Shown here: in pieces, positions 26,837 through 35,397 of the stretch
Numbering within the stretch: the stretch's first letter is position 1
Layout: each line of letters begins with the position of its first letter
Assembly (NCBI GenBank): GCA_009886115.1
Contig: VFJJ01000014.1
Span: forward strand, 1 to 44,229
Length of the DNA: 44,229 bases
Direction: 5' to 3'
Origin: Actinomycetota bacterium
GTDB taxonomy: Bacteria; Actinomycetota; Acidimicrobiia; IMCC26256; VFJJ01
Notes under the pieces: model-generated
What the model saw: the letters and a program-made list of their open reading frames with translations, nothing else
Told to the model about the DNA's origin: nothing
The model's database searches: none
Translations under genes and position numbers: made by a program

Positions 26837-26887
26837 CGAAATTTGTGCAGGCAACGACGCTGGGCGTCGTTGCCTGCACAAATTTCG
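26837..26887. repeat. Perfect inverted repeat, 24-bp arms and 3-base loop
   Basis: The left arm 26837-26860 begins CGAAATTTGTGC and ends CAACGACGC. The loop is TGG (26861-26863). The right arm 26864-26887 is its exact complement, with no mismatch. It lies between the convergent stops of typA and the LOG-Nudix gene and could terminate both transcripts, with AAATTT at the base of the stem providing the weak pairs. The stem is longer than an ordinary terminator and has no plain U-run after it, so a mobile palindromic element (REP/MITE-like) is an equal possibility. Confidence 0.9.
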
Positions 26888-26931: not shown

Positions 26932-27933
26932 TCAGTGCAGGAGGCCGCGCTCGGCGAGGAGGGCCAGGACGATCCGGTCGGCGGGGGCGCAGCGTTCGCT
27001 GTCGGCGAGGGTGAGCCAGGCCAGCTCGGCGATCTCACCGCTGGCCTCGGGCTGGCCGTCGACGGCGCCCGTGTAGCAGATCATGCGCACGACGGCCTCG
27101 GCGCCGTGGCCGTGCGCCGGCGCCACGACGGTGGTGAGATGCTCGACGGTGTCGAGGCAGATGGTCACGCCGAGCTCCTCGGCCAGCTCTCGAGCCAGGG
27201 TCTCGCGGTCGTGCTCGCCCAACTCACGTTTGCCGCCCGGCAGGTAGAACGCGTCGCGGTCGACGCTGCGGACGTGCAACACCGCATTGTCGGCGACGTG
27301 CACCCAGGCGACGGTGTCGATCCAGACGGCCTCACTCGCAGTGCTCTCGAACTTGGCGGCCGGGACGTGAGCGTGCAGCAGGCGCTCGAGAAGCGAGATG
27401 GGATCGTCGTCGAACGCCACGGCCCGGGTGTGGGCCGGTCGCACGAATCCCTCCAACGTGGCGTGCAGCACGAACTGGCGCAGGTGCTCGTAGTAGCCGG
27501 CGACGTTCAAGAACCCCAAGGGCTTGCGGTGGATCCCGAGCTGCGACCACGTCCACATCTCGAAGATCTCCTCGAACGTGCCCGGTCCGCCCGGGAGCGC
27601 GATGAAGGCGTCACCGAGCGAGGCCATGGTCATCTTGCGAGCGTGCATGTCCTCGACGACGAGCAGGTCGGTGAGGCCGGGATGGGCGACCTCGGCGTTC
27701 ACGAGCTGGTGGGGGATCACACCGATCACCTCGCCCCCCGCCGCGAGGACGGCGTCGGCGACCACGCCCATGAGGCCGATCTGGGCTCCGCCGTAGACGA
27801 GCCCGAGGCCTTGCTCGGCCAGCAGCGTCCCGAGGGTCCGGGCGGCCTCGGTGTACTCGGGGCGCGTGCCGGTCGCCGATCCGCAATACACCGTGACCCG
27901 GCGGGGCTTCGAGCACGCTGCGATGTCAGTCAT
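26932..27933 (-). CDS. LOG-family phosphoribohydrolase fused to a Nudix hydrolase
   Basis: A 333-aa two-domain protein. Residues 12-190 are a LOG/TIGR00730 Rossmann domain with YGGAQIGLMG, the HARKM element and the active-site motif PGGPGTFEE. Members hydrolyse nucleoside 5'-monophosphates to base and ribose 5-phosphate. Residues about 205-333 are a Nudix domain with a complete Nudix box at 234-256 (GKRELGE, then RELAEELGV), expected to bind metal and cleave nucleoside diphosphate derivatives. LOG proteins are normally about 180-200 aa on their own. The ATG overlaps the upstream ligase stop by eight bases (27926-27933), making it the last gene of the acyl-CoA operon. The joint function is inference: Nudix could make the monophosphate that LOG then splits. 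Confidence 0.88.
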   Translation of the reverse strand: MTDIAACSKPRRVTVYCGSATGTRPEYTEAARTLGTLLAEQGLGLVYGGAQIGLMGVVADAVLAAGGEVIGVIPHQLVNAEVAHPGLTDLLVVEDMHARKMTMASLGDAFIALPGGPGTFEEIFEMWTWSQLGIHRKPLGFLNVAGYYEHLRQFVLHATLEGFVRPAHTRAVAFDDDPISLLERLLHAHVPAAKFESTASEAVWIDTVAWVHVADNAVLHVRSVDRDAFYLPGGKRELGEHDRETLARELAEELGVTICLDTVEHLTTVVAPAHGHGAEAVVRMICYTGAVDGQPEASGEIAELAWLTLADSERCAPADRIVLALLAERGLLH

Positions 27934-29545
27934 GGGTCGGCTCTCCTGGCCGAGGGTGCTCGTCGGCCGAGTGGGTGAGGGCCTGCGCTCGGAGCTGGTT
28001 CTTGGCGACCTTGCCGAGGAGCGAGCGGGGGAGCTCGTCGACGAGCCAGACGGCCCGGGGGCGTTTGAAGTCGGCCAGCTGCTCGCCGCAGGCCGCGCCG
28101 ATAGCGTTGACGAGATCGCTGGACCCGGCGGCACCGGATGCGATCACGAAGGCCACGGGCTGCTCGTCGAGCATCGTGTGGGGTCGGCCGACCACGGCCA
28201 CCTCCTCGACACCGGGCACCGCTGCGATGATGCGCTCGATCTCGGACGCGGCCACGTTCTCGCCGCCGACGCGCAGCATGTCCTTGGCCCGGTCGGCGAA
28301 GCTGAGGAAGCCGTCGGCATGGGCGGTGACGAGGTCGCCGGTGCGCATCCAGCCGTCGTCGGTGAACGCCGCCGCCGTCGCCTCGGGGTCGTGCAGGTAC
28401 TCGGCGAAGAGCGAGATCCCGCGGACCCCGCGCACGTGGAGCTCGCCGGTGTCGTCGGGCCCGACCTCGGCCCCGTCATCGTCACGGACCGAGATCCCGT
28501 ACTCGGGCGCCGGCCGGCCCATCGACATCGACCGATTGGGATGGTGCACGTCACCGACGATTCCGTGGGTGACCGTCTCGGTCATGCCCCACCAGCCGAT
28601 GGTCTTCACGCCCCAGCGGGCGTCGGTCGGGGGCTCGCACCACGCGTTGCCGACGAGCCGGAGGGTATGTTCGGCCGGCGGGTCGGTGTGCTGCAGGGCC
28701 CGCCACGAGAAGCGGGTGAGGGTGGTCCAGGTGCAGCGGTGTCGCTCGACGACGGGCCAGAACCGTGATGCCGAGAAGCGCGGCTGGAGCACGAGCGTGG
28801 CCCCGACCCACAACGATGCCAGCATCGAGTAGCACAGCGCGTTGATGTGGAACAGGGGCAGGTTCGCCAGGTGCACGTCGCTCGAGCGAAGGTCCTCGTG
28901 GCTGGCGCTGGTGCGCGCGCCCCAGAGGGCGTTGGCGTGGCTCAGCACGACGCCCTTGGGGCGGGCGGTCGTCCCCGACGTGTACTGGATGCCCATGGGT
29001 GCCATGGGATCGACGGGTCGGTCGGGTAGGCCGGCCGGATCTCCGCCGCGCTCGAACACCTCGAACCCGTCGCTGCCGCTACCGTCGTCGCAGACCGCGA
29101 CCCATCGGAGACGGTTACCGGCCGACGCATCGGCGCGAACGACGTTCGAGATCTCCGCGTCAGCGAAGATCGCCCCGGACACGTCGGCGTGCGCCATGCA
29201 GTACGCCAGCTCGTCGGTGGCCAGTCGGGTGTTGGTGGTCACGCAAACGGCTCCGACCCGGGCGCAGGCCAGCCAGCTCACGATGAACTCAGGTCGGTTG
29301 TCGAGGTGCAGAAGCACCCGATCGCCCGCTCGGACTCCCTTGCCGTACATGGCCGCGGCGACCTTCTGGCTCCTCTGGGCCAAGGCGCGGTAGCTGATGG
29401 GCTCGGCCGGCCCGTCGAACGGAGCCCAGACGATGGCCGGATGCTCGCCGCGGGCGCGGGCCTGCTGGTCGACGAGCCAGGCCACGTCGCGGCCGACGAA
29501 GGGATGCCGACCTGGCCCGGTCTGGCGCACTGCGGAACCGCTCAC
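27926..29545 (-). CDS. Acyl-CoA synthetase (AMP-forming ligase)
   Basis: A 539-aa ANL-superfamily enzyme that activates a carboxylic acid via an acyl-adenylate to a CoA thioester. Motifs: the ATP P-loop YTSGTTARPKGVV, GWWGMTETVTHG, DDGWMRTGDLV, and the C-terminal PRSLLGKVAKNQLR with the catalytic lysine. The length and position beside acyl-CoA dehydrogenases suggest a fatty-acid, steroid-side-chain or similar substrate. The start is GTG 29545, which overlaps the preceding dehydrogenase stop as GTGA. A much longer in-frame extension is antisense-like reading and is rejected. Confidence 0.92.
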   Translation of the reverse strand: MSGSAVRQTGPGRHPFVGRDVAWLVDQQARARGEHPAIVWAPFDGPAEPISYRALAQRSQKVAAAMYGKGVRAGDRVLLHLDNRPEFIVSWLACARVGAVCVTTNTRLATDELAYCMAHADVSGAIFADAEISNVVRADASAGNRLRWVAVCDDGSGSDGFEVFERGGDPAGLPDRPVDPMAPMGIQYTSGTTARPKGVVLSHANALWGARTSASHEDLRSSDVHLANLPLFHINALCYSMLASLWVGATLVLQPRFSASRFWPVVERHRCTWTTLTRFSWRALQHTDPPAEHTLRLVGNAWCEPPTDARWGVKTIGWWGMTETVTHGIVGDVHHPNRSMSMGRPAPEYGISVRDDDGAEVGPDDTGELHVRGVRGISLFAEYLHDPEATAAAFTDDGWMRTGDLVTAHADGFLSFADRAKDMLRVGGENVAASEIERIIAAVPGVEEVAVVGRPHTMLDEQPVAFVIASGAAGSSDLVNAIGAACGEQLADFKRPRAVWLVDELPRSLLGKVAKNQLRAQALTHSADEHPRPGEPTHD

Positions 29546-30546
29546 CCGAGCACGTGGGTGGCGACCCGGGATTGGTGCCACCGGGCGTCGCCGTAGGCCG
29601 GGAGGAGCGCCCAGACCCGCTTCATGAACAGGTGCAGATCGTGCTCGAGCGTGTAGGCGATGGCGCCGTGGCACTGCAGGCAGGCCTTGACCGCCACGCT
29701 GGCGGCCTCGGAGGCATAGACCTTGGCCATCGAGCAGTGCACCGATGCCAGCGGATCGCCGGCGTGGCGCGACCATGCCGCCCGATACACGACAGGCCGG
29801 GCGTAGGCCAGCTTCAACTCCACGTTGGCCAGATGGTGCTTGACCGCCTGATAGGAGCCGATCGGCACGCCGAACTGCTTGCGCTCCTTCACGTACTCGA
29901 CCGTGATGTCGAGCATCCGGGCGGCGAGGCCGCACAGTTGCGCCGCCACGGCGAGCGCGCCCCGGTCGCGCGCTGCACCAGCCAGAGCGGCTGCCGCCGG
30001 ACCCGACGCCAGCACCGGGCCCCCGTCGAGGACGCGAGGGTCGAGAGCGAACAGCGGCCGGGCCGCGTCGACGTTGGCCTGCGGTACGAGCGCGTAGGCG
30101 TCGGGGCTCAGCAGCTCGACGGTGTCGGCGGCGGCGCGCACCACCAGCCCCGCCCGATCGGCCCACGGCGCGTATTCGGCGCCGAAGGTCATGACGGCGA
30201 TCGTCGACCCGTCGGCGATGCCGGGCAGGTGCTCGGCGGCCACGGTGCCACCGATGGCCGCGAGGAGCGGGGCGACCACGGCGGTCGTCTCCACGAGCGG
30301 CTCGGGCAGGCCAGCGCGACCGGTCTCCTCCATGATCAGGACGAGGTCGAGATCGTCCATCCCCAAGCCCCCCATGGCTTCGGGGACGGTGAGACCGACC
30401 ACGCCCATGTCGGCGAGCTGCGGCCAGAGCTGCGAAGGCTCGCCGTTCCACGCCGAGCGCACCACCGAGGGCGGGCATTCCCGCACGAGGAAGTCGCGCA
30501 CCGCATCGCGGAACGCCAGCTGGTCGTCGGAGAAGGCGAAGTGCAT
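29542..30546 (-). CDS. Short acyl-CoA dehydrogenase subunit, FadE29/ChsE2-like
   Basis: A 334-aa acyl-CoA dehydrogenase, shorter than the usual 380-400 residues. The middle beta-domain is reduced and the C-terminus carries KACLQCHGAIAYTLEHDLHL, typical of the small partner in two-subunit steroid-type dehydrogenases. ERKQFGVPIGSYQAVKH marks the FAD-binding helical domain. In Mycobacterium, ChsE1-ChsE2 (FadE28-FadE29) forms an alpha2beta2 enzyme that oxidises a C3 steroid side chain. Here the larger partner is encoded 18 bases upstream. Heteromer formation is inference from this pairing. Confidence 0.82.
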   Translation of the reverse strand: MHFAFSDDQLAFRDAVRDFLVRECPPSVVRSAWNGEPSQLWPQLADMGVVGLTVPEAMGGLGMDDLDLVLIMEETGRAGLPEPLVETTAVVAPLLAAIGGTVAAEHLPGIADGSTIAVMTFGAEYAPWADRAGLVVRAAADTVELLSPDAYALVPQANVDAARPLFALDPRVLDGGPVLASGPAAAALAGAARDRGALAVAAQLCGLAARMLDITVEYVKERKQFGVPIGSYQAVKHHLANVELKLAYARPVVYRAAWSRHAGDPLASVHCSMAKVYASEAASVAVKACLQCHGAIAYTLEHDLHLFMKRVWALLPAYGDARWHQSRVATHVLG

Positions 30547-30564: not shown

Positions 30565-31740
30565 CTACTTGCGGGGGAGGCCGAGCACACGCTCGGCGAT
30601 CACGTTGCGTTGGATCTCGTTGGTTCCCGCGTAGATGGGCCCGGCCAGGGCGAACATGAACGAGCTCATCCAGGCTCCGTGGTCGACGGCGTCGGGCGCC
30701 CCCTCCACGAGCGGAGCCCGGGACCCGAGCAGGCGCAGCGCAGCCTCGTTCAGGCGGATGTCCATCTCCGACCAGAAGACCTTGTTGACGCTCGATTCGG
30801 GGCCCATGGTCGCGCCCTGGGCCAGGCGGGTGACCGTCTGGAGCGTGTTGAGCTGGTAGGCCTCGGCGTCCATCCAGGCCTCGACGACGGCGTCACGGGC
30901 GCCCTGCTCGTCGTGTGTGGGCGCGCCGATGCGGTGGTGGAGGTCGACGAGGCGGGCGGCGGCGGCCATGAATCGGCCCGGTGAACGCAGGGTGAGCCCC
31001 CGCTCGGAACCGGTCGTGGCCATGGCGACGTCCCAGCCCCGGTCGACCCCGCCGAGCACGGCACTGTCGGGCGCGAAGGCACCGTCGAAGAACACCTCGG
31101 CGAAGCCGGCATCGCCGTCGAGCTTGTCGACGGGCCGGACGTCGACGCCGTCCTGATCGAGGTCGACGAGCAGGTAGCTCAGGCCCCGGTGACGATCGGC
31201 CGCGGGATCGGTGCGGAACAGGCCGAAGAGCTTGGTGGCGAAGGCGCCCCTGGTCGTCCAGGTCTTCTGCCCGTGCAGCCGCCAACCGCCAGCGGCGTCG
31301 TCGCGGACACCCGTCGACCGGATGCCGGCCAGGTCCGACCCGGCGTTGGGTTCCGACCAGCCCTGGCACCAGATGTCGTCGACACCAGCCATGCGGGGCA
31401 GGATCTCGTCGCGCTGCTCCTGCGTGCCGAACTCGAAGATGCTCGGCGCGAGGAGGAAGATGCCGTTCTGGGCGACCCGTTGCGGCAGTCCGATCCGGTA
31501 GTACTCCTCCTCGAAGATGAGCCACTCCCACAGCGACGCCTCGCGCCCGCCGTACTCTCGGGGCCAGCTCACCACGGCCCAGCCGGCCTCGAACAGACGC
31601 CGTTCCCAGGCGCGGTTGACGGGGAAGCCCTCGAACGTGTCGCCGTGGGGCAGTGGCTCGCGAGGCGCGTTGGCCTCGAGCCAGGCCCGGGCCTCGGCGC
31701 GGAACTGGTCCTCGGCCGGAGTCCAACGCAGGTCCATCAT
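30565..31740 (-). CDS. Acyl-CoA dehydrogenase, FadE28/ChsE1-like
   Basis: A 391-aa dehydrogenase with the normal three-domain length. Visible are WSEPNAGSDLAGI (substrate/FAD-binding loop), GQKTWTT and the C-terminal IYAGTNEIQRNVIAERVLGL. In ordinary medium-chain enzymes the corresponding motif is YEGT with the catalytic glutamate. Here it is YAGT, so the base must come from elsewhere, possibly from a different helix or the partner subunit, as in steroid-type heteromers. ATG 31740 begins MMDLRWTPAEDQFR; the second Met is equally possible. Confidence 0.85.
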   Translation of the reverse strand: MMDLRWTPAEDQFRAEARAWLEANAPREPLPHGDTFEGFPVNRAWERRLFEAGWAVVSWPREYGGREASLWEWLIFEEEYYRIGLPQRVAQNGIFLLAPSIFEFGTQEQRDEILPRMAGVDDIWCQGWSEPNAGSDLAGIRSTGVRDDAAGGWRLHGQKTWTTRGAFATKLFGLFRTDPAADRHRGLSYLLVDLDQDGVDVRPVDKLDGDAGFAEVFFDGAFAPDSAVLGGVDRGWDVAMATTGSERGLTLRSPGRFMAAAARLVDLHHRIGAPTHDEQGARDAVVEAWMDAEAYQLNTLQTVTRLAQGATMGPESSVNKVFWSEMDIRLNEAALRLLGSRAPLVEGAPDAVDHGAWMSSFMFALAGPIYAGTNEIQRNVIAERVLGLPRK

Positions 31741-31789: not shown

Positions 31790-33004
31790 TCAGCGGGTGA
31801 CGATCACCGACGAGCCGTGGCCGAACAGGCCCTGGTTGACCGTGAGCCCGGCCGTGGCCCCCTCGACCTGCCGCCCACCGGCTTCGCCACGGAGTTGCCA
31901 GGCCAGCTCGCACACCTGGGCGATGGCCTGTGCCGGGATGGCCTCGCCGAAGCTGGCGAGCCCGCCGCTGGGGTTGACGGGGATCCGTCCGCCGATGGTG
32001 GTGGCGCCGCTGCGGAGGAGTGCCTCGGCCTCGCCGGGTGCGCACAGGCCGATGTTCTCGTACCAGTCGAGCTCGAGCGCGTCGGACAGGTCGTAGACCT
32101 CGGCCAACGAGAGATCTTCGGGACCGATCCCAGCTTCCTCGTACGCCTCATGGGCGATGGAGTCGCGGTAGCTGATCGCCGGCAATGACACGCCCAGGCC
32201 GGCTCCCGAGTCGGTGGCCAGGTCGGGCATGTCGAGGTACGTGTTGGGATACCGCGGCGTCGCCGTCGAGACCGCGGCGATCGTGACGGGACGGGCGCCC
32301 CGGCCCGCGGCCCGATGACGACGTGCGTACTCGGTGCTGGCGAGCACGATCGCAGCCGCACCGTCTGACGTGGCACAGATGTCGAGGAGACCGAGCGGAT
32401 CGGCGACGATGGGCGCCCCGAGCACCTCCTCGACCGTGAACGGCTTCGAGTAGCGGGCGTTGGGGTTGGTGAGCCCGTGCTTGGCGTTCTTCACCTTGAC
32501 CAACGCGAAGTCCTCGCGGGTCGCGCCGTGCAGGGCCATGCGACGACGGGCGTAGAGAGCGAAGTAGGTGGGGTTGGTTGCGCCGACGAGACGGAAACGC
32601 AGCCAGTCGGGATCGTCCCAGCGCTCGCCGGGCAGCGGGCCGAAGAACCCCTTGGGCGCGGTGTCGGCTCCGATGACGAGCGCCACGTCGCACAGACCCG
32701 CCAGGATCTGCGCTCGGCCGATGCTCAGCGCGACGGCCCCCGTGGCACAGGCCGCGAACACGCTCGAGCTGCGGATCCCCTGCCACCCCAAGGCCTGCTG
32801 GAACGTGGCGCCCGAGACGTACCCCGGGTACCCGTTGCGCATCGTGTTGCCGGCCGAGACGTACTGGATGTCGTCCCACCCGAGACCGGCGTCGGAGAGC
32901 GCGTTGTGTGCGGCGACCGTCCCGTACTCCCAGAAGGGCCGGCCCCACTTCCCCCACGGGTGCATCCCGACCCCGAGGACGGCGACGTCGTGGTCACGGC
33001 TCAT
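31790..33004 (-). CDS. Thiolase-fold lipid-transfer protein, Ltp2-like aldolase
   Basis: A 404-aa thiolase-superfamily protein of the SCP-x/Ltp type. The nucleophile-region cysteine survives in CATGAVALSIG. The usual thiolase histidine motif GHP is replaced by GEA in NPSGGLASFGEAIPAQA, arguing against ordinary thiolase activity. Its stop-start overlap (ATGA) with a DUF35 protein mirrors Ltp2 and its DUF35 partner in sterol catabolism. There the pair performs a retro-aldol cleavage releasing propionyl-CoA from the side chain. The ATG 33004 was chosen for that overlap; the longer reading is rejected. Confidence 0.82.
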   Translation of the reverse strand: MSRDHDVAVLGVGMHPWGKWGRPFWEYGTVAAHNALSDAGLGWDDIQYVSAGNTMRNGYPGYVSGATFQQALGWQGIRSSSVFAACATGAVALSIGRAQILAGLCDVALVIGADTAPKGFFGPLPGERWDDPDWLRFRLVGATNPTYFALYARRRMALHGATREDFALVKVKNAKHGLTNPNARYSKPFTVEEVLGAPIVADPLGLLDICATSDGAAAIVLASTEYARRHRAAGRGARPVTIAAVSTATPRYPNTYLDMPDLATDSGAGLGVSLPAISYRDSIAHEAYEEAGIGPEDLSLAEVYDLSDALELDWYENIGLCAPGEAEALLRSGATTIGGRIPVNPSGGLASFGEAIPAQAIAQVCELAWQLRGEAGGRQVEGATAGLTVNQGLFGHGSSVIVTR

Positions 33005-34519: not shown

Positions 34520-35371
34520 TCATGCGACCCAGGCGCGCCACCGCCGGCGGAACGCGGCGTCGAAGACCTGGAAGCGGCTTCTCAGCGCCTCGGCGGGCCA
34601 ACCGGGGGGCTCGAGCGGACCCGGCAGCAACGGATCGGCGCGCAGGTGACGCAACATCGCGGCGTCGAGCGAGAAGACCGTCGCCAGGTGCGAGCCCGTC
34701 GCCGACGCGGCGTCGAGCGCGAGCAGCAGTGCGTGGGCGCTCGCCGCCCAACCGTCGAGATCGAACACCGTCCGGGCCAGGTCGCGGGGATCGCCCGCGG
34801 GGCGAGCCGTGAACCTGGACGCAACGATCCCGCCCGGCTCCGACCCCTCGGAGCCCTCGGCAAGCTCGGCGATCAGCGGTGCGTCCCCGGTGTCGAGGAG
34901 GTTGTCGGGTCTGAGCCACACGCCCTCTCGCAGCTCGCCGAGCCGCGCCGCCCGGAGGCCGCGGCGCAGCGACCTGCGGGCAGCAGGCAGCCGGCCGGCG
35001 TCGCCCAGCACCAGCACCGTCCAGGAGCCATCCCACTCGCGCAGGTGCGGCGATCGGCTCACGTCGAGGCCGCGCTGACGCGCGGCGAGGGTGCCCGTGA
35101 GGAGGTAGCGGCCGTCCCGGTTCTCGACCTCGCCGCGGGTCGCCATGCGAGACAAAGCCACCCGGGTGGTCCCCTCGCTGATGCCGAAGGCGGCCGCGGT
35201 GCGTACCAGGACCGCGACCGGGAGCTCGGGAGGATGGGAGCCGAGCAGGGTCGAGGCCAACACCGAGCGTGCGTTCAGCGGTCGTACCAGGCCGGGCACG
35301 GCCTCCACACCCACCGGGCGGCCCGCCGAACGCCCCGGCTCGAGCGCCCCGCTATCACATTCTTGGCTCAT
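34520..35371 (-). CDS. PaaX-family transcriptional regulator
   Basis: A 283-aa regulator from ATG 35371 (ATG 35395 would add eight residues but leave no promoter room). The N-terminal winged helix shows FGISEGTTRVALSRMATRGEVENRDGRY, the PaaX DNA-binding signature. The central domain has WDGSWTVLVLGD and LREGVWLRPDNL, and the C-terminal domain follows. PaaX proteins repress catabolic operons and are released by aryl- or acyl-CoA thioesters. It is divergent from a desaturase gene with only 26 bases between starts and upstream of the acyl-CoA operon on the same strand, so both are plausible targets. Confidence 0.88.
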   Translation of the reverse strand: MSQECDSGALEPGRSAGRPVGVEAVPGLVRPLNARSVLASTLLGSHPPELPVAVLVRTAAAFGISEGTTRVALSRMATRGEVENRDGRYLLTGTLAARQRGLDVSRSPHLREWDGSWTVLVLGDAGRLPAARRSLRRGLRAARLGELREGVWLRPDNLLDTGDAPLIAELAEGSEGSEPGGIVASRFTARPAGDPRDLARTVFDLDGWAASAHALLLALDAASATGSHLATVFSLDAAMLRHLRADPLLPGPLEPPGWPAEALRSRFQVFDAAFRRRWRAWVA

Positions 35372-35391
35372 ACGGTGCTGAAGTGTAATAT
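35364..35391. promoter_or_regulatory. Overlapping divergent promoters of the PaaX regulator and desaturase
   Basis: For the plus strand, TTGGCT (35364-35369) and TAATAT (35386-35391) with a 16-base spacer end six bases before ATG 35398, giving a leaderless desaturase mRNA. On the minus strand TATTAC in the same A/T-rich patch lies 13 bases before ATG 35371. The two promoters share sequence, so one bound regulator would affect both. No clear palindromic operator is visible. Confidence 0.55.
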
Positions 35392-35397
35392 GCATCG

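Follow-up and report, generated by a model that had tools for sequence, protein, structure and literature searches.

We found that a stretch of actinobacterial DNA, analysed at its full length of 44,229 nucleotides and referred to here as the window, carries on its minus strand a gene in which a LOG phosphoribohydrolase and a Nudix hydrolase are joined in one polypeptide. What is new is the architecture; the parts themselves are known. The protein is predicted to be a bifunctional nucleotide-disposal enzyme, which we judged the most likely reading, with a probability of roughly 40%. The MutT-type Nudix domain would take a nucleoside triphosphate that is unwanted, be it damaged, methylated or non-canonical in another way, to the monophosphate and pyrophosphate, and the type-I LOG domain, probably as a dimer, would then split this monophosphate at its N-glycosidic bond into free base and ribose 5-phosphate. 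With that bond cut, kinases could no longer re-phosphorylate the monophosphate.

One frame with a full LOG and a full Nudix domain

Translation of the window from 27933 to 26932 gave one stop-free open reading frame of 333 aa, with the following features.

26932..27933, minus strand: coding sequence of the LOG–Nudix fusion, 333 aa, ATG start, TGA stop
27364..27903, minus strand: LOG (type-I phosphoribohydrolase) domain, aa 11–190 (PF03641/TIGR00730; matches to 5zbj/5zbk)
27637..27639, minus strand: codon of the catalytic Arg99 (MHARK), invariant in alignments A1 and A4
27568..27594, minus strand: PGGPGTFEE motif, aa 114–122, including the catalytic Glu122 (sequence, alignment and R99/E122 of CgLOG; PMC8234997)
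27325..27363, minus strand: inter-domain linker, about aa 191–203, with codon 211 as the earliest in-frame start codon
26935..27324, minus strand: Nudix domain, aa 204–333 (PF00293; domain-only AlphaFold model, MutT-type folds closest)
27166..27234, minus strand: Nudix box GKRELGEHDRETLARELAEELGV, aa 234–256, an exact fit to GX5EX7REUXEEXGU

The first-pass annotation had described both domains as complete and the Nudix box as perfect, and both descriptions held. In Pfam, PF03641 matched aa 55–184 with 147 bits (cut-off 27) and PF00293 matched aa 211–318 with 44 bits (cut-off 21.1), and the TIGR00730 score of the fusion protein was 198.6 bits, above the curated cut-off of 96.35. The catalytic residues R99 and E122 and the PGGxGTxxE pattern (as PGGPGTFEE) are all kept in the LOG half, and the numbering of the pair is identical to that of the C. 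glutamicum LOG (PMC8234997). The LOG match starts at aa 12 of 333, without the N-terminal extension of 50–60 aa that is typical of type-II LOGs (PMC8234997). Across about 178 aa the LOG half is 57% identical to 5zbj, one of the solved type-I LOGs (P. aeruginosa 5zbj/5zbk and C. glutamicum 5its), and the LOG model fitted 5zbk over 179 columns with an rmsd of 1.2 Å; those enzymes are single-domain proteins, whereas the fusion adds a C-terminal Nudix domain. Alignment with homologues demonstrated that this Nudix domain keeps every Nudix catalytic residue. These results confirmed that one frame contains a full type-I LOG and a full Nudix domain.

A merger of two adjacent genes by assembly or sequencing error would fit with the fusion being known from one draft genome only (224 contigs), and with a +2-frame stop close to codon 200, but appears extremely improbable. 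Past codon 184, the first in-frame ATG, GTG or TTG is codon 211, which lies within the first Nudix strand, so a two-gene merger would also require a lost start codon. GC content by codon position was uniform over the two halves (0.70/0.45/0.91 in LOG and 0.77/0.46/0.93 in Nudix). Because the Nudix frame has no start before codon 211 and codon-position GC is alike across the junction, an assembly frameshift is an unlikely source of the fusion, and neither a frameshift nor a missed stop between the domains, the artefacts that the first-pass annotation had named, was indicated by the start codons and codon-position GC. A GTGA in the linker (codons 199–201) was considered as a relic of a 4-nt overlap and set aside as coincidence, its GTG being out of frame with both domains.

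Rarity of the fusion and LOG–Nudix gene pairs elsewhere

The fusion was found only in the window's own genome, which is the only genome of its genus and family. Whole-protein searches gave no full-length match in 58 genomes of the order, 395 of the class or 396 of the phylum, in 295 genomes of another phylum (that of G914; those listed were very small and little informative), among 72,556 plasmids and 50,697 phages, or in IMG/VR. The genome sets partly overlap and amount in all to about 1,000 other bacterial genomes. Elsewhere these searches returned the LOG half alone, with identity of up to 61–62%, and a scan of genome contigs returned one relative, which was LOG-only. The search with the whole protein, run here on genomes, plasmids and phages, yielded no second fusion, and a literature search found no paper naming a LOG–Nudix fusion, with an earlier mention being possible. 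We consider the fusion rare within the genome, plasmid and phage sets searched, and make no claim that it is the first of its kind. It is not the genome's only LOG-like protein, because the same genome has a second, distant LOG-like gene with 28% identity (L002, about 1501–2070; G000:C148). PADLOC gave only weak generic matches, and matches of the Nudix half to TALE repeats in the PDB were dismissed as chance.

Separate LOG and Nudix genes were found side by side in the actinobacterial genus g325. In 20 of its 30 genomes a Nudix gene lies immediately downstream of LOG, in the same order as in the fusion; at the 13 junctions measured, the two genes overlapped by 4 nt in 11 cases and were separated by 7 nt in the other two, as in the single-contig genome G590, where the Nudix gene begins 7 nt past the LOG stop. 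One further member (L126) has the Nudix gene about 0.6 kb upstream of LOG. The coupled genes of G590 and its relatives are like the fusion in domain order and direct adjacency, but they make two polypeptides and their Nudix partner comes from another clade. In the Nudix tree the window's domain grouped with stand-alone Nudix genes of families f78 and f83 (support 96/91) and the g325 partners fell in a different supported clade; in the LOG tree the window grouped with class relatives with moderate support (89/87) and the g325 LOGs formed their own clade (100/97). Because the Nudix partners sit in different clades and the g325 LOGs in a clade of their own, the trees indicate that the LOG–Nudix pairing arose at least twice, independently. 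The neighbouring genes in this unrelated genus are the strongest of the new evidence and suggest that the two enzymes work together, most probably to clear unwanted nucleotides. Neighbours upstream of the g325 LOG are highly variable, and the downstream synteny is common also to loci without the Nudix gene; the linkage argument is weakened by this and the linkage partly explained by conserved gene order.

At the other loci of the class and phylum, LOG lay beside Nudix in 1 of 55 (the window's own excluded), and that one was a g325 member, so the association is occasional and not general. No Nudix box was detected within 1.5 kb of LOG at the class and phylum loci examined outside g325, and no LOG was found within 1.5 kb of the Nudix homologues of genera g396 and g398 (family f110). 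We also observed that in plasmid NZ_CP092188.1 of Deinococcus sp. KNUC1210 (L033, 3600–4551) the Nudix gene comes first and overlaps the start of a LOG gene broken by a frameshift. Its Nudix protein is of a third, more distant type, and the plasmid shows a third LOG–Nudix pairing.

Genomic setting among acyl-CoA genes

The genes upstream of the fusion, all on the same strand, were annotated as follows.

27941..27947, minus strand: AGGAGAG, Shine–Dalgarno-like, 7 nt before the ATG of the fusion (read directly)
27926..29458, minus strand: AMP-binding gene (acyl-CoA ligase type), start approximate (PF00501/PF13193)
29542–30546 and 30565–31740, minus strand: two acyl-CoA dehydrogenase genes (domain search)
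31790..33001, minus strand: thiolase-like gene, start approximate (domain search)

The fusion is the last gene of the run and begins within the end of the ligase gene, with an 8-nt overlap between its ATG and the ligase stop; its earlier description as last in an acyl-CoA operon is real as to position. Farther upstream on the same strand, a PaaX-like regulator is encoded at 34523–35395. On the other side, between the convergent ends of typA/bipA and the fusion, 26837–26887 contains a perfect inverted repeat, CGAAATTTGTGCAGGCAACGACGC, with 24-nt arms and a 3-nt loop; no T-run was seen at this repeat, and no exact copy of its core was found in 135 kb of the genome's other contigs.

Genes for acyl-CoA dehydrogenases, carboxylases or AMP-ligases were found within 1.5 kb of LOG at 15 of 35 class loci, drawn from seven families (L005, L006, L009, L012, L013, L016, L019, L021, L024, L025, L027–L029, L032 and L087), compared to 1 of 26 other phylum loci, although the class loci are not all independent (six, for example, come from family f20). 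In a Pfam tally near the class LOGs, acyl-CoA dehydrogenase (7 members) and carboxyl transferase (4) led, and neither was on the list of families given for the phylum control. The neighbours in class relatives vary in kind and are frequently divergent, and a sample of the window's own genome had about 3 acyl-CoA gene places per 135 kb. The proximity in the class may come from common regulation or from how numerous genes of this sort are. The phylum loci (L034–L059) had ADP-ribosylglycohydrolase (2 members) and NAD synthase (3) among their neighbours, and an NAD-linked context of LOG is possible in those other lineages.

Nudix substrate class and predicted function

The fold of the Nudix domain was taken from a domain-only AlphaFold model (mean pLDDT 91.6), as the whole-protein model, for lack of Nudix relatives in its alignment, could be used neither for the Nudix half nor for the arrangement of the domains. 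Nudix folds topped the structure matches. The closest was MutT 3hhj (Z 18.1), and MutT with 8-oxo-dGMP (3a6t, Z 16.2), BdRppH with GTP/dGTP, NudG and MutT2 were also among the nearest; mycobacterial MutT1 (5gg6) scored Z 14.1 and the ADP-ribose pyrophosphatase 4kyx Z 14.7, and fold likeness among Nudix enzymes does not fix the substrate. The top NCBIfam matches of this domain and of the G590 partner were likewise of MutT/NudG type and all below cut-off (for the fusion, TIGR00586 21.8 of 97.9 bits and NF007834 29.1 of 156 bits). The domain thus shares a perfect Nudix box and its closest fold with the (d)NTP diphosphatases MutT, NudG and MutT2, but stays below every curated NCBIfam cut-off and sits behind a LOG. 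Because the equivalog cut-offs were missed, we describe it as probably working like a MutT/NudG-type (d)NTP diphosphatase and not as being one.

The motifs of other substrate classes were sought by reading the sequence. Nudix CoA diphosphatases carry LLTxR(S/A)... before FPGG; the fusion reads VLHVRSVDRDAFYLPGG there and lacks this motif, and the CoA-like substrate proposed in the first-pass annotation is not supported. Its NAD-like substrate fared no better, since SQPWPFPQS, the NADH diphosphatase motif that follows the box (PMC5389931), is absent from the fusion protein. The Tyr of ApnA hydrolases was also absent from the Nudix domain. A Pro about 16 residues past the box, in the X-loop, is a marker reported for ADP-ribose diphosphatases (PMC5389931), and the fusion has P272 at box+16, which is not conserved in its nearest homologues.

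An adenosine dinucleotide-type substrate (ADP-ribose, NADH, FAD or Ap4A), cut by Nudix to AMP and then by LOG to adenine and ribose 5-phosphate for turnover or signal removal, would make use of this Pro and of the acceptance of AMP by LOGs (PMC6864091). SLOG and Nudix domains have been placed together in NAD/ADP-ribose networks (PMC9503650) and also occur together in TRPM channels, which like the fusion combine an SLOG (MHR1/2) region and a C-terminal NUDT9-homology domain in one protein, but as eukaryotic ion channels with a distant SLOG clade and with ligand sensing in place of base release (PMC13143021). Given the missing NADH and ApnA features, the variable Pro and the MutT-type best folds, this reading seems unlikely. 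A service to the acyl-CoA pathway, such as clearing CoA, or the AMP or dinucleoside polyphosphates that the neighbouring AMP-forming acyl-CoA ligase makes, draws on the 8-nt overlap at the end of the run and on the class loci described above. It is quite improbable: the coupled g325 pairs have other and varied neighbours, those in the class are of mixed kinds and often divergent, the CoA-diphosphatase motif is lacking, and these genomes are probably rich in acyl-CoA genes, with loci within a family not independent.

Chance joining, or a regulatory device in which the Nudix part serves for ligand binding or just as a folding aid, without a common pathway, is suggested by the one known occurrence and by how common LOG and Nudix genes both are; a few chance adjacencies might be expected among many loci. 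We regard this as unlikely, as the Nudix catalytic residues are all kept and a second, independent lineage has LOG and Nudix still together in 20 of its 30 genomes. Cytokinin activation, with Nudix turning isopentenyladenosine di- or triphosphate into the monophosphate from which LOG frees the hormone, would bridge the gap between IPT product and LOG substrate that has been named as an open question in plants (PMC12066119). It is very unlikely here: the cytokinin LOG equivalog NF058542 reached 132 of 300 bits, below its cut-off, PF01745 matches in these genomes spanned no more than about 100 of the 233 model positions, lay in frames as long as MiaA or longer, and appeared in the E. coli and B. 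subtilis controls too, and the phytopathogen IPT type works on AMP.

For the predicted disposal enzyme, we infer the reaction order, the triphosphate substrate class and the sanitation role. The route from NTP through NMP to base and ribose 5-phosphate was favoured because the fold and NCBIfam class are MutT-like, the other motifs are absent and LOGs accept monophosphates. The earlier suggestion that Nudix supplies the monophosphate for LOG gained weight from the g325 gene pair and the MutT-like model; on the other side, the fusion is in one genome and the LOG–Nudix link is not general. Mycobacterial MutT1, a two-domain enzyme acting on 8-oxo-(d)GTP, likewise has its Nudix domain as one part of a longer sanitation protein and gave a weak NCBIfam match, although its partner domain is of phosphatase type and not a LOG. 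We know of no Nudix domain in DNPH1, a different protein with a deoxynucleotide substrate. DNPH1 is nonetheless a precedent for glycosidic disposal, and resembles the proposed LOG step in converting a non-canonical monophosphate to base and sugar phosphate (PMC10603095, PMC12751057). The B. pertussis LOG prefers GMP over AMP, and 6-O-methylguanine is its reported physiological product in cells (PMC6864091).

What LOG enzymes do in bacteria that live apart from plants is not settled. It is a tentative and still doubtful idea that actinobacteria have a recurrent disposal route of LOG and MutT-type Nudix, and that bacterial LOGs outside plant-associated species would serve sanitation and not hormone synthesis. 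Because the fusion couples both activities in a fixed 1:1 ratio within one polypeptide, the assay is simple. Together with the independent g325 pair, it leads to a testable guess, that LOG may complete the work of a Nudix cleaner and make nucleotide removal irreversible.
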